A stretch of 64,000 nucleotides of DNA from Calliopum simillimum (Eukaryota > Arthropoda > Insecta > Diptera > Lauxaniidae), in the NCBI GenBank assembly GCA_951812925.1, contig OX638372.1, forward strand, positions 11,003,410 to 11,067,409, in the 5' to 3' direction. The notes below the pieces were generated by a model that ran no database searches, was not told the origin of the DNA, and was given only the letters and a program-made list of their open reading frames with translations. The translations under genes and the position numbers were made by a program. Shown in pieces: positions 56,131 through 63,481 of this stretch (position 1 is its first letter; each line of letters opens with the position of its first letter).

Positions 56131-57881
56131 GGAACTAGTCAATCATCACCTGACGGTTATAGAAATCTAGTCAAGTGTCAAGCTACCGTAGGGGGGTTGG
56201 TTGGTGTCAATATTACCAACGTCAACGATGGAAGAGTTTTGTGGAAGCCTTATGCTCTGAAAGGGAGTAAAGAAAACAAAGAAAAGGTAGTACCTTAACC
56301 AGAGATTCTTAACCCTTGTGCCGTAAGATTTTTAAGGTGTGCTACCACTGCCAGAAAGCAAGGTTCAAAGCGTAGCTTGTCTAAGTATTACTGGGGCTTT
56401 TTAAACAACAGCCACTGCAGCACTGAAACGCTTCTTCAGCTTGAACCACTTAATATTTTTTTCAGAAGTTTGATACTATACTTTAAGAATTGGGTTTCTA
56501 GAAATTAAAAGTTTTGGTCACAATAGTACTTTACTTCAATTTATGGATTGTGATGCAATTAGTGTTACCGACTATCTCCTACCAAACTTTATTTTCCCAA
56601 CAAACTTACAGTTAGTAACACCTAAAAGGAATAATTAGGCTCCTTTAAATATACACTGATAGGTCGCAACTGAATATACATAGGTACTGGTTCAAGAAAT
56701 AATTCCTAGCCAAATCGTAGAGATAGGGACAAACGAAAAGAGCTAAAATATTGCTGATGGATTAGCTAGGAAAAGATAAAACCAGAACAGCCTTTTGGCT
56801 GACCTTTCAATAAAAAACCCATTAACGTTATCAAGGTAAAAATCGAAAGTAAATATATTCAGCCTGCTAATAATAGATAGTCAAATCTACAAACTTGCAA
56901 GCATATTAGATCAATTTGGCCATCCTAAAATATTAATCGTACTTAATTTTTAATAGCAATGGAGAAACACAATGTGCATATCTTAATTGGTGATACTAGG
57001 GGAACTAATGCTATTGTGGTATAGCTAATGCTTAGGTGGAATTTGAAAGAGAACCGTTAGATCAATTTATTCTGATCACTGAAGTATTGGCTACAGAATA
57101 TATTTCAATTAAATGTGTGCAATTTCATTAAAAAAAGTTAATGAGCAAAATCTGAAAAAAGTCAAAAAAGCTGTTTTCAAAAAGTTAGCAGGTAATATGG
57201 TATGTATGGTAGGGCAATGTGGTATATATACTTATTAGTAGATACTTGTAAAGTGGGCTGATAATGTAGTACATACATAAGTCGGGTAATGTGGTATACT
57301 TAACCATACAACCAAATATAAAGTTTGAAAGGTATGAAATAAGTTCATAATAACATTTACATTGGTTCTCAAACTCATAGTTTTTATTAAAAAATAAACA
57401 GCAATCAAATAATGTTAAGAATAACAAGAAGTATTCATATAACACATTAGCGAACTCCGATTATACCACACTGGCCAATTTTTAGAAATTACAAAATTGT
57501 AAAAATATAATGGGAAACTTTGTGAATTTATACAGTTAAACACTTATTGCGCAATATTCAGCACTTATTTACTTTAATTGAATATAAATAAAACTTCCAC
57601 AGAAAGCAACTTATTCTTAACACTCAAATCCACATCATGGGTAAAATTTACCCATGCGAAGTTTGTTTTCGTAATAATTCGCTAAAAAACGAACAAAGAA
57701 ACGAAGTAAGCACATGTAAATTACCTCACTGTATTCTGCTTTTGTTGTGGGCTTTGTCGCCAACGGTCGTCGTCGGTTGTTGGAGTTATAGCGTTTTAAT
57801 TTTTTTTTCGGGTAAATTTTACCCATGTTGTGGACTTATGTAAGTTTTTTTTTTTTTCGTTTTGATTGAAAATAGTAAATA

Positions 57882-58186
57882 ATGGCGCGAAAAAGAGTAA
57901 AACATGACGACGAAATAAATAAAATTTTGAAAAGAATTGAACTCTTATTGTTTCAACCAAAGCTAAAAAGCAGATGCCAAATCATACAGCTTCGAAAAAG
58001 TTTGAAGGAGCTTATAATGAAAATTTTTCGTACTTTTAGTCCACTCTGAAAACAACCAATGTTGTACTGGAAAAACCTGTCAGATGTTTTTAATGTCCGG
58101 CAAAAAAAGACCGAAAAACTAAAAATGTTTGAATTTGTTGTAAAAAACCTTTTTGTTCTGAGCATAGGGCTATGATTTGCAGTACA
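57882..58186 (+). pseudogene. piggyBac-type transposase, internally deleted
   Basis: ATG at 57882 gives MARKRVKHDDEINKIL, like the acidic N-terminus of piggyBac proteins. The DDD catalytic region is missing, and after a frame change the C-terminal cysteine-rich domain appears: PVRCF-stop-CPAKKDRKTKNV-stop-ICCKKPFCSEHRAMICSTC (58074-58186). The C-x2-C, C-x2-C, C-x2-H and C-x2-C pairs match the cross-brace zinc finger of insect piggyBac transposases. Inactive. Confidence 0.8.
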
Positions 58187-58329
58187 TGCACATCCTTATT
58201 TGTTTTATTTTTTTGGTACTTTTTTATGATCTTGTATAAAAAATTTTTAAATGTTATTTAATTGAATTGATAATAATATAAAAATACTTTAATTTATTTA
58301 TATAAAAAATGTAGTTTCTTACAAAAATC

Positions 58330-58743
58330 ATTAGGGGTATTCACGATCTAGAGTAACGTCCTGAGTAACAGAGTAACAGGGTAACAGTGCACAACCACAA
58401 CAACAAAATATACGTAAGTTACTCTGTTACTCTTTTAATCTTTTAGTCAAGCTATTTTCTAGTGTAAAATAATCTTACACTTTTGCCTTTTTTATTATTT
58501 CTATAGAAACGTTTGAACTTGTTTATGATTGAGAGGCAATTTTCGTTCATCAAAAATAAAAATTTGAATGAGAGCAAAATATTTATTTAAAACAATTTTT
58601 TTTTTGTTGGCAGCTAAAATTATTTTGAGAAACAAAAAGCAAATATACGTGCAAAGTATTGAGTATGCTCACTATTTAGAGTAACTGAGTGCACTTTTAC
58701 CCTGTTACTCAGCTCGTTACTCCAGATCGTGAATAACTCTAAT
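58330..58743. mobile_element. MITE with ~29-bp terminal inverted repeats
   Basis: Left cattaggggtattcacgatc then tagagtaacg; right, inverted, cattagagttattcacgatc then tggagtaacg. Internal gagtaacag phrases are repeated. It lies between the piggyBac remnant and the misato stop codon and may sit in the misato 3' untranslated part. Confidence 0.85.
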
Positions 58744-58851
58744 GAATATTTTTTGTTACGTTAGTGAAAGCATGTATTAGCTTAATTTAAGTCTTTTGAA
58801 TGTTTGCATTTCATTTTGCTTCTTGCTACATCGTCTATTTGTTCTATACGG

Positions 58852-59762
58852 CTACAATTCAAAATTATCCTCATAATTATCCTTAAACAATAACAAATTT
58901 TCCAATGCATCGACATAGTCATCCTCCTCTAGGCCAGCTCCCGCGAAACGATGCAATTTAGCAATTTTTATACGTTTTGCTTCACGATGTAAAACTTCCA
59001 CAGTATCAGCCAACTTGCTCGTAGACTGTACTGTTGCCAATGTCGGTACAGTGCAGACTTTTTTTGAAGGTGCACGCTTCTCAAACGATGTCAAGAAACC
59101 ATCCACATTTACAACATCCTCAAACATTTCACATGGGAATGGTATACGTGTTGGCATTGCTGATGCTATAGAGGTCACATGCGACATGCTAGCATGATTG
59201 GCACACTGCAGGTACAGTTGCAACATTTCTGAAACGCTATTGCATTTGTAAGCGGCCATACGCATTTGTAGCTTCGCTTGCTCTAATGGACGTTTGAGAC
59301 GATTGCTCGGAATGCCACGTACACACAGCGATTGTATAATGTAATCGATACCAATACTGCAATTCGGTGTTAATTGTGTAAAAAGACTACCTTCATATTT
59401 ATCCAGACAATCAATGAGATCTTCATTATGTTGCATTGCAAATGGCAACGCAAGCGCACCAGCTGCAAGTTTTCGTCCATAATTTGTGAGATCGCCACAG
59501 AATCCACCGAGTGAGTTTGCTGCGGGTGCATCTTTAAGACGATAACGCATTGAAATGGTATCAAGATATGCAGCCAATATACTAGATGTTTGATAAAGAT
59601 TATCGGCTTGATAGTTGAGTGCACGCAGCTCACGTGGTGCACCCAGCTGTCGCCAGACACGATCTTTAGTGCAGAGTGGTACAAAGAGTGATGACTGCTC
59701 GATGAGTTGATTAAAAGTTAAGGCACTGTTTACAACACGTATGGAGTCGGTCATGGGTTCAT
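58852..59762 (-). CDS. mst: Misato C-terminal exon (partial gene copy)
   Basis: Misato is a tubulin/FtsZ-related protein; it is known in flies for spindle and tubulin-complex functions and in vertebrates as MSTO1 for mitochondrial morphology. The exon's first base is 59762, after a good acceptor ctcttccaccag on the minus strand. The frame then runs open through about 302 codons to TAG at 58852-58854. Recognised Misato segments: EQSSLFVPLCTKDRVWRQLG, YQTSSILAAYLDTISMRYRL, FCGDLTNYGRKLAAGALAL and RIPFPCEMF. The C-terminus is acidic (EEDDYVDALENLLLF). The N-terminal tubulin-like half is not in the window; full proteins are about 570 residues. No frameshift or stop. It is enclosed by transposon ends, so it may be a captured copy rather than the resident gene. 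A polyadenylation signal on the minus strand is seen only inside the neighbouring MITE (aataaa at about 58587). Confidence 0.9.
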
Positions 59763-60574
59763 CTGGTGGAAGAGAAATATTGGAAAAAAGTGATTATTAG
59801 TTTGGTTTATGAGCAAAAACTAAGTTTCAAAGGAGTCAAACGAATTATGGGATTGATTGGTGAATAATTCGTAAAAGTAAATTCCAACAAGAGGTCATAA
59901 CACCTCCATTACAAGCTGTTCCGAAATCCATGCGACTTCAGTTACTTTTCGTTTCGAAAGATTTTTGATGGAAACGACACGTTTAAAACTATAAGGATCT
60001 TTTTAGTGGAGAGAAACACGTTATACGAAAAACTTATCATTAACGAAATATTCTAAAAAAAACCCGGAAAAATTATTTTGATCAAAAAGCTTTCCAATCG
60101 AAAAGTAATTGAAATCGCACAGATTCTGGAACAGGCATTTAAAAGTATTATTTGTAAAGTGTTCTGTCACAAGAAATCAAGAAAAAATAAATTTTTACAG
60201 TTCTCTGTCCTATGTAAACATATCTATACTTGTAATCGATATACTGACAGAGTAACTTACTCTGAAGTGGTATTGTACACGGTGAAGGGTAGGTATTAAA
60301 TTTTTACCAAGGGTCAAAACTAAGCAGCTTATAAGAATATTGTATCAATTTACCGGTATTTTCGAAAAGCACGCTTTTGGGCGCAAATACTGGAACCGCG
60401 AAATGAATTAATGTAAAAATTATTTATTTTCAAAGTTTTCTTAAAATATATGTAAAAAACACCAGATATAGCTTATTTTCCTTTCAATTCGCCTTGGTTT
60501 TAGATTGTTAAGGTAGAAATAACTAAGTTTCGTTAAAAATTTGGGATACTGACCAATACAGAATGTTTTTAAGT
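59763..60574. other. Probable misato intron remnant
   Basis: Minus-strand sequence upstream of the acceptor at 59763-59764. No further misato exon is visible here or to the right end of the window. The plus-strand frame at 60078-60299 lacks features. Confidence 0.45.
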
Positions 60575-61204
60575 TATGGGTAAAATTTACCCATGATGTG
60601 GACTTGTGTTGCTAAAAATATGTTGGGGAGATGAGGGTTAACAAAATTTTGTTGCGAAAAACGCGGAAAAAAATCCGACCACGCGCGACTTAAGTTTCGC
60701 TCAACTGACAGCGGAAAAGTTTTGTATGGTGCATGACAGCTACACATTCCTAGTTTTTCATGTTTTATGACAGCATAAAACATGTGACGACCACAGGTTC
60801 TTATCCATATCGGAGATATGCGAATATACCACATTGAAAAACTATACCACAATAGCACCAGTTCCCCTACTAAACATTGCTCCATGGGAAACCATTCATC
60901 TCTTGTGTTTCTTCAATATAAGCGATCTTTGTAGGAGTTGTAAAGACCCTGATATGGAGGAAACAGTTCTTCATTTCTTTTGCAAGTGTCCAGACGTAGA
61001 ATAGACTTTGGTCAATTCAATTTTAGACCTCTTGACTCACCGTTTGAAGTGCTGTCTTAAATCTATATGGAAGTATTTATGAACATCCATATGGTTCCCT
61101 TAGACTTTCTTTGTTAAAGCTGTCTGCGTCGGCTACATAATGGGCCCAACTCTGAGGCACAAGTTTATGATGACAACATTGTCATCTAACCTAACTTAAC
61201 CTAC

Positions 61205-61836: not shown

Positions 61837-63481
61837 ATGCAAGTGGATTGCAATTGCAAAAAGAACTGTACCTACAATCATCGTATCAAGGAGATTCGCG
61901 AATACATCGAGAGGAGCGGCCACTGATTTCCAATCTTGTGGAATAGCTGTATCTGTAGCTGTAAAAGAGTACAGGCAAACAGAATTAGTTCCGCACGAAA
62001 TTTTAAGAAAACATCTCAAATGTCCAATATAAAAGATGGTAAGTTTATGAATAAAGCTTCAAGCTGAAGGCTTCAAAAAGTGCATTTTCTGTTGTAATCA
62101 AGTGAATCGAATTTTATATGCGATTGAGAAAAGCCCAATTCTTTCAAAACTTTTCATGTTTTAGTTTAATGCTTTAAATCCTTTTCCTTTCATAGAAGCA
62201 GTAAAGAAAGCTGCAGCAAAATCTGCGGATAAAACCAACAATGCAACACAAAAACATTCCGTCTCACCTCCCTTTCATATAGGAAACACACTATTTCACA
62301 ATAAACGTCTCAGGCAAAAACGTGCAAAGTTTCTTACGTTGCGTAAAGCCTCTAGACGCCGTCAAAAGACTGAACGTCGTAAAAAGCGTCTATCTGCACT
62401 TAAAGCAGATGTAACTATTGATTTGCTATCAGATGATGAACCTACAGCAACAGTGGTTACTCCCGTAATCAAAAAATTGACACAGAAAAAGCCTCAGAAA
62501 CCGGTATTCCAATCAGAGCCGCCACTTCTAATACCACTTCAAACTTCAAAAGAGTTAATACAACAAAACACACAATCGAATCCAACTGCGCTACCACAAG
62601 TTATTCTCTTTCCCGCTAATATACAAATATCGCAGGTGCCTAACATAACGCTTATTCCAGTGCAGCCATTAAATGCAAATGCAACAACTGCAGTAACAAA
62701 ATCGAAGAAAAACAAACGGAAAACGCACCCACAAAAGCGTCCACAACCAACACTGATCACTGAAAGTATTGTACTTACAGATGATGATAGTAATATAGAC
62801 TTCAATCACATACAACCTCCAGCAGCATCTACACCATTACCTACTGTATCCGTATCCCCAATTATGCCTGTTACAAAACAACCAATTATCACATCGGTCA
62901 CATCGACGGCACCACCACCTTTAGTTCCACTACTTAGTGCCCAAGTAGATGAAGAAGTTTCCGTTTCACTTGTTCCACGCTCAAAAGCGACTGGTACTTG
63001 TGGACCGTCACACAATAAAAATTCACTTTTTCCAATGCTACCAGATGAAACAACTGTACATACTGTTATTGCCAATCGTATCTATGAATTATCGCTTACA
63101 AAACTGCGTGAAGGATTAGCCTCATGCGGTATACCCGAATTCGCTGATGAACGTAAAACTGGTACTGCATCAATACGACGAAAAAAGAATTTTGTACCTC
63201 CCATAGTGACACCACCGCCAGTACCAATTTCATTAAAGTTATCAAGCGATTTAAGTATATCATTGATCTCAGATGATGACGATGATGATGTCGCTAAAAC
63301 GACATCACATAAACAGCACTTTAACAGATCAAAGTTAAGCACAAGCGCACAAAGACACCAACAACAAAATATACAATTAACAGTGCAACATTTGCCACCC
63401 CAACAGGTGGTATCGTTGCCATTGATATCGGCGTCAAGAGATGTTACGCATCAGAAGCCGCGTAAACGAAAACTGGGTTGA
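61837..63481 (+). CDS. Two-exon host gene, probable nuclear protein with SIM-like motifs
   Basis: Exon 2 (62196-63481) follows tttcctttcatag and is open to TGA at 63479. Exon 1 ends at 62038 before gtaagt; splicing joins ATG TCC AAT ATA AAA GAT G with AA GCA in phase. Starting at the ATG at 62020 the protein has 434 residues. It is basic and low-complexity: RRRQKTERRKKRL near residue 55, many P/T/S, and a C-terminal RKRKL nuclear-localisation-like end. Three hydrophobic-acidic motifs resemble SUMO-interaction motifs: IDLLSDDE, SIVLTDDDSNID, ISLISDDDDDD. One non-repetitive stretch, VIANRIYELSLTKLREGLAS, predicts helix. Upstream in the same phase from ATG 61837 lies MQVDCNCKKNCTYNHRIKEI, 29 codons to a TGA at 61924, then LWNSCICSCKRVQ; see findings. 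I do not recognise the family. Confidence 0.75.
62039..62195 (+). other. Intron of the 61.8-63.5 kb gene
   Basis: 157 bp from gtaagt to a pyrimidine-rich ttcctttcatag. Phase 1 intron; size typical of fly short introns. Confidence 0.8.

Follow-up and report, generated by a model that had tools for sequence, protein, structure and literature searches.

The window analysed here, a stretch of 64,000 nucleotides from the lauxaniid fly Calliopum simillimum (contig OX638372.1, hereafter C5; C5:11003410-11067409 in a genome of 690 Mb and 334 contigs), contains a piece of the gene misato embedded in mobile DNA. Four layers are nested in one another at this locus: a decayed retrotransposon relic, a TA-flanked element, a TTAA-bounded unit and, innermost, a third element together with the misato piece. 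The misato piece is probably a very young partial duplication of the gene, which arose when a transposon was repaired with misato as the template, and was not carried in by a transposon. Sister copies of the outer element without the TTAA unit, and of the TTAA unit without misato, occur elsewhere in the genome, and the window copy has a complete misato gene 22.3 kb to its right, on the same chromosome and the opposite strand.

The captured segment is 1,664 bp long (58741-60404, minus strand), its edges being uncertain by a few bases through microhomology. Read along the gene, it opens with 51 bp from the 3' end of the penultimate exon (exon B; 60354-60404, minus) and continues with the donor GT (60352-60353), the whole last intron of 591 bp (59763-60353, minus; the same sequence lies between parental exons B and C), the acceptor CAG (59763-59765), the terminal exon and, past the stop, a further 111 bp. 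The coding part of the terminal exon (58855-59762, minus) holds 302 codons and a split codon, closed by a TAG at 58852-58854, in a frame that is open from stop to stop (58852-59793, minus). The donor, acceptor and stop letters of this copy were checked in the sequence. Within the intron lies a small inverted-repeat element (59916-60136; 59-bp arms, 81% complementary), which is also present in the parent gene and accounts for many genome matches to query positions 1176-1396. The protein relatives of the exon are misato proteins, the best named match being that of Pseudolycoriella hygida (57% identity over 97% of the query), with unnamed entries reaching 74%, Megaselia and Bradysia 55%, Anopheles farauti 50% and two beetles 43-44%. 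The window exon alone gave no Pfam match, PF14881 finding the parent but not this exon, and a PDB sequence search returned 0 hits.

The source of the segment is C5:11086140-11088011, in inverted orientation, with 99.75% identity over 1214 bp and 100% over 459 bp. Joining the parental exons gives a frame of 509 residues, without the exons further upstream, in which two domains score above their Pfam cut-offs: Misat_Tub_SegII (PF10644, 30.1 bits against 26.5) and Tubulin_3 (PF14881, 89.3 bits against 30). Two copies of the terminal exon were found in the genome, one in the gene and one in the window, and the frame of 313 residues is 100% identical in both. No third full match to the segment was found among the 40 candidates scored of 1,015, which added only repeats of the intronic element and a 70-bp exon B match; in the searches with the TTAA unit, the third element and the outer element, 40 of 190, 40 of 983 and 40 of 1,840 candidates were scored. 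The exon B match belongs to an older and decayed copy of the misato 5' half (L065:34-1018; C5:77066833-77067817), which is 66 Mb from the gene, shows about 87-88% identity with deletions in its coding sequence, and ends about 40 bp into the last intron.

Over the comparable sequence, the window copy and the gene differ only at 58744, 58775 and 58783, all within 43 bp of the left edge, the remaining 1.62 kb being identical; under uniform placement, such clustering by one edge has P = 3.5e-5. The parental 5' side consists of misato exon B and its intron, and the check for transposon proximity (100 bp) covered the 3' flank (500 bp). As no other genome match was found for these 500 bp of 3' flank, a duplication by flanking repeat is not indicated. 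An initial annotation of the window, made from its letters alone, had described a 302-codon misato exon with its acceptor site and had read it as a duplicate of a resident gene, to be checked by locating a full-length misato in the same assembly. The exon, its acceptor and its open frame stand, and the complete gene was found nearby. That annotation had also recognised that a sole misato gene, with 5' exons just beyond the window spliced to this exon, would speak against duplication. Such 5' exons do exist just outside the window, yet they read in the opposite direction and lead to a terminal exon of their own; the duplicate reading holds, and the proposal that the window exon is the only misato terminal exon is rejected.

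The surrounding layers were resolved by comparison with their sister copies. The retrotransposon relic, which we take from its motif to be a non-long terminal repeat (non-LTR) retrotransposon, is split into a left part (56900-56998, plus strand; frame ..EKHNVHILIGDT) and a right part (60868-61010, plus; frames KHCSMGNHSS.. and CRSCKDPDMEETVLHFFCKCPDVE). When the outer flanks are joined, a reading frame is restored in which ..ILIGDT (to 56998) continues into KHCSMGNHSS.. (from 60868), with a frameshift before ..CRSCKDPDMEETVLHFFCKCP. The interruption is a TA-flanked DNA transposon (56999-60867), whose inverted ends of 26 bp (56999-57024 and 60842-60867) have a chance expectation of 0.00; 848 bp of it are left once the TTAA unit is subtracted. 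Its family is large: among 1,840 first-look candidates, the 40 scored comprise the window copy and 39 others with 88-92% identity over the tested stretch. Seven of nine sisters read are full length (852-855 bp) and bear TA at both ends. All nine alignments run across the insertion point of the TTAA unit, and in two of them (L055, L057) the empty site itself reads TTAA.

The second nested unit occupies 57617-60641 and is a non-autonomous piggyBac-like unit with cargo, its arms (57617-58333 and 60402-60641; 717 and 240 bp) ending in TTAA at 57617-57620 and 60638-60641. The left end reads TTAACACTC and the right end TTAACCCTC, with a 34-bp inverted repeat near the ends (91%); piggyBac ends begin CCC or CCY and carry inverted repeats. 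The sister comparison rests on 29 loci (L012-L040) fetched through the right arm, ten of which failed the full-length filter. The 19 that passed measure 980-997 bp, have TTAA at both ends in every case and lie in unrelated flanks. Both window arms align with them, and thus represent the two ends of one terminal inverted repeat (TIR) transposon on either side of the cargo. Compared with the window arms, the closest sisters show 9 differences in 954 positions and 10 in 957, and three substitutions in the arms are private to the window among the 19. Neither misato sequence nor the third element was found in sister units (0 of 29 loci read). All 19 aligned sisters keep, before AATGAATTAATG, an AT-rich and poly-T segment of 27-39 bp that is absent from the window copy, in which the third element and the misato segment replace about 36 bp of this segment (in a unit of about 991 bp). 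In the junction comparison, 25 of 26 sister units were shown, the anchor not being found in L023. A sister unit (L018:575-1455) holds a different element of about 0.88 kb, with ends GGGTGCTATT.../...AATAGCACCC, at the same CATTA/poly-T spot.

The nesting described by the initial annotation is thus real. Its misato exon within a TTAA-bounded piggyBac-like unit, the second, TA-flanked element around this unit, the 848 bp remainder and the coding order that reconnects upon removal of the outer element, though with a frameshift, all agree with the data above. The sister elements of 874 and 880 bp that it had invoked were not recovered, no sister of the outer element being found in the window or the surrounding 130 kb. 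Additions to that description are the third element, the 51 bp of exon B with the donor, the last intron in full, and the complete gene at a distance of 22 kb.

At the right junction of the cargo, ..GCGAAAT joins GAATTAATG, with AAT common to source and unit. At the left junction, which follows the third element and its TA, the window reads ATGAATATTTTTTG where the source reads AATGAATAATATTTTTTG; one reading of this is microhomology of 1-2 bp and a loss of 3 bp, the other a longer match that extends through AATGAAT. Short microhomology at the capture point and the deletion of about 36 bp there would be in keeping with break repair.

The most likely order of events is as follows. The outer TA element would have inserted into the retrotransposon relic, and a non-autonomous piggyBac-like unit of about 1 kb would then have inserted into the outer element at TTAA. 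This unit would have broken at its internal poly-T tract, losing about 36 bp, and the gap would have been closed with a 1.66-kb copy of misato sequence taken from 22 kb off on the same chromosome. Microhomology of 1-3 bp (up to 7 bp in the alternative reading of the left junction) would have guided the copying. The template would presumably have been DNA. Either before or after this fill, a third TA element would have inserted at the left junction. Transposition-independent gap filling is also the explanation offered for single-copy Pack-TIRs, TIR transposons that hold a parental segment, by Tan et al. 2021 (PMC8277862).

The timing of the third element, here called M3, can be read in two ways. 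M3 is a miniature inverted-repeat transposable element (MITE) at 58334-58739, from a family of about 412 bp with ends GGGGTATTCACG.../...CGTGAATAACTC, and is bordered by TA at 58332-58333 and 58740-58741. Its family yielded 983 first-look candidates, and the 40 scored include the window copy. Target sites were measured in 12 of 14 sister loci (L067 and L068 were unscored), ten of which have TA on both sides. Relative to L043 and L044, the window M3 has 0 substitutions, and a deletion of 6 bp is private to it; with three of 11 loci (L042, L047 and L049) cut in the wrong register, the comparison is limited to these zero-difference counts and the deletion. In addition to TA, the M3 sites show a preference for T two and four bases past the right-hand TA, which holds in 10 of 10 sisters bearing both TA (L042-L052). 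Scored against the target preference of these ten sisters, the joined sequence reaches 2.03, as compared with -0.98 and -0.36 for two unfilled forms, and the joined target CATTAATGA ranks 12 of 205 TA sites within the unit. This fit speaks for a fill that came first, with M3 arriving later. M3 lies exactly at the junction, on the other hand, as expected if it was in place first and the unit broke at its end, which fits M3 before the fill. The spot evidently attracts insertions without any fill, since L018 carries a different element there in an unfilled unit. No place was found where M3 adjoins the right arm directly, without misato between them, and a pattern for the left arm joined to M3 gave 20 matches, namely the window, three that proved on reading not to be TTAA units, and 16 unread.

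The initial annotation had gone further and proposed that the exon was captured and moved by the piggyBac-like element, that is, that the unit took up misato elsewhere or at the gene itself and then transposed here with its cargo. Transport by the unit is unsupported, and we regard it as unlikely. The unit has kept both TTAA ends, its site is whole in sister outer elements, and piggyBac elements may be recently active in this genome: PF13843 (piggyBac-type transposase) has 119 genome matches, many in uninterrupted frames of up to 726 codons. TTAACCCT ends are also present at three of four piggyBac-type transposase loci read (L070-L073), whereas the ends of this unit are at none of the four. 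Against transport stands the single copy. Other TTAA units with the same cargo, which that annotation had suggested seeking, were not found among the 29 sister loci, nor was another TTAA unit with M3 (0 of 29, and none among the three pattern matches that were read). Only 22.3 kb separate the copy from its source, in contrast to the multicopy Pack-TIRs found in frog and alligator, which are far from theirs (PMC8277862), and the loss of about 36 bp and the short microhomology at the capture point likewise sit poorly with carriage. The earlier interpretation is therefore upheld in part: the duplicate, the TTAA unit and the open frame stand, and the carriage by the unit lacks support.

Several observations weigh against the templated-repair reading that we prefer. 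The source distance of 22.3 kb exceeds the range of less than 15 kb in which 56.9% of the published cases fall (PMC8277862). The comparison of private substitutions, three in 957 bp of arms against none in 1620 bp of cargo, is a weak indication that the unit is older than its cargo (P = 0.051, 19 sisters); these substitutions could also predate the arrival of the unit at the site. The probability attached to the clustered differences depends on the alignment of the left edge, and the coincidence of the left junction with the end of M3 needs a second event or chance. Also, the last intron of the parent contains 200 N (C5:11086599-11086798), inside the duplicated block, and Tan et al. discard parental loci with gaps (PMC8277862). 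The gap shows a 9-bp overlap of contig ends, AAACGAAAA, and lies in one arm of the intronic inverted-repeat element (flanks about L001:2290-2540). It is the only run of N in the joined 130 kb, and none occurs in the 134,843 other bases fetched, so that its place in the duplicated block is unlikely to be due to chance.

This gap is what makes an assembly artefact worth weighing, in which the window copy or the 3' half of the parent would be a mis-join or a mis-placed haplotype, and the 100% identity of the frame points the same way. The window stretch is itself gap-free, however, and at both of its junctions the same TTAA element resumes, correctly ordered and oriented, which a false assembly could produce only by two reciprocal mis-joins. 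The duplication is also independent of the far side of the gap, because the 459-bp part and the 5' exons share one gap-free stretch with the window copy. An artefact is thus quite improbable.

A similarly low probability attaches to an older capture whose identity with the parent was maintained by gene conversion, acting between the two inverted copies over a distance of 22 kb. The confinement of the three differences to 43 bp by one edge, where conversion tracts could end, and the three private substitutions in the unit arms would suit it. Conversion must, however, reach to within a few bases of the other edge, and the nearest sister units differ by only about 1%, so that little time would have been available. 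Least probable is an RNA-templated patch, in which unspliced misato pre-mRNA was reverse-transcribed into the break as a class 2 templated sequence insertion: such insertions occur in human cells with microdeletion and microhomology, yet the experimental inserts are of 73-414 bp as against 1,664 bp with an unspliced intron here, and the source in cis favours a DNA template (PMC5110952). The segment was not copied from a spliced mRNA, because the intron is retained, and a retrocopy of this kind is rejected.

The window copy is most likely silent. Its share of the misato coding sequence is confined to the terminal exon and 51 bp of exon B, and it most likely yields no misato protein, since the 5' exons are absent. 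The initial annotation had remarked that the exon has stayed open. The frame is open indeed, but this carries no weight, as it is 100% identical to that of the gene; with no divergence from the gene to measure, the open frame reflects youth and not selection, which is rejected as its cause. If transcription came from the right, the copy could serve as a terminal exon, and the unit would be able to move given a matching transposase. A bolder suggestion, which we put forward tentatively and consider rather unlikely, is that the locus is a newborn gene-carrying piggyBac cassette with both TTAA ends, a splice-ready terminal exon that could be spread as a mobile exon, and a footprint of error-prone copying. 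If this were true, the three changes by one junction would be the footprint of an error-prone initiation of copying. In the neighbouring sequence, a 438-codon open frame without a Pfam match (62165-63481, plus) is probably part of an adjacent gene.

For annotation, the window exon should be treated neither as a second misato gene nor as part of the first. At this one locus one can read the donor gene, the element in its empty form, the segment that was lost and the precise edges of the cargo. The locus shows how mobile DNA can pick up gene pieces, not that the misato piece ever moved. It also lets one test, in living insects, whether transposons must transpose in order to take up gene pieces or whether repair is enough.

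Among known systems, the closest likeness is to the single-copy Pack-TIRs, whose source is on the same chromosome in 59.8% of cases, with a median microhomology of 2 bp and a median lost segment of 4.6% of the element (PMC8277862). The criterion used there calls for one best parental copy with at least 90% identity and similar length, along with flanking and other filters that include a transposon distance of 100 bp. Here TIR ends are found on both sides, one parental copy is 99.75-100% identical and the intron is retained, whereas the parental locus is not gap-free as the quality filter demands. The case may be called Pack-TIR-like until the parental gap is closed, confirmed membership being withheld. 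It shares with the single-copy Pack-TIRs a single copy, a parental segment inside a TIR transposon, a source on the same chromosome, microhomology, internal loss and an intron, and differs in the parental gap, the piggyBac-like host unit and the third element at one junction. It would add an insect case, the survey of 100 animals having found no Pack-TIR in insect reference genomes (PMC8277862); no later report of an insect Pack-TIR was seen among the literature listings searched.

Other systems share single traits with the misato locus. The class 2 templated insertions likewise patch a break from another locus with microdeletion and microhomology, but they are human, their experimental inserts are shorter, they are not specifically in transposons and they are thought to be RNA-templated (PMC5110952). 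Polymerase theta end joining in Drosophila also leaves microhomology and templated, sometimes mismatched, filler at transposon breaks, although these fillers are short and come from flanking sequence, in contrast to 1.66 kb from 22 kb away (PMC2895639). In the Turmoil-1 transduplication of Caenorhabditis elegans, exon and intron pieces of host genes are similarly found in an animal DNA transposon, but the fragments lie in terminal repeats and in several partial copies, whereas here the piece is internal and single (PMC2572040). The wider known kind comprises gene fragments duplicated into DNA transposons, and the present case adds to that kind.

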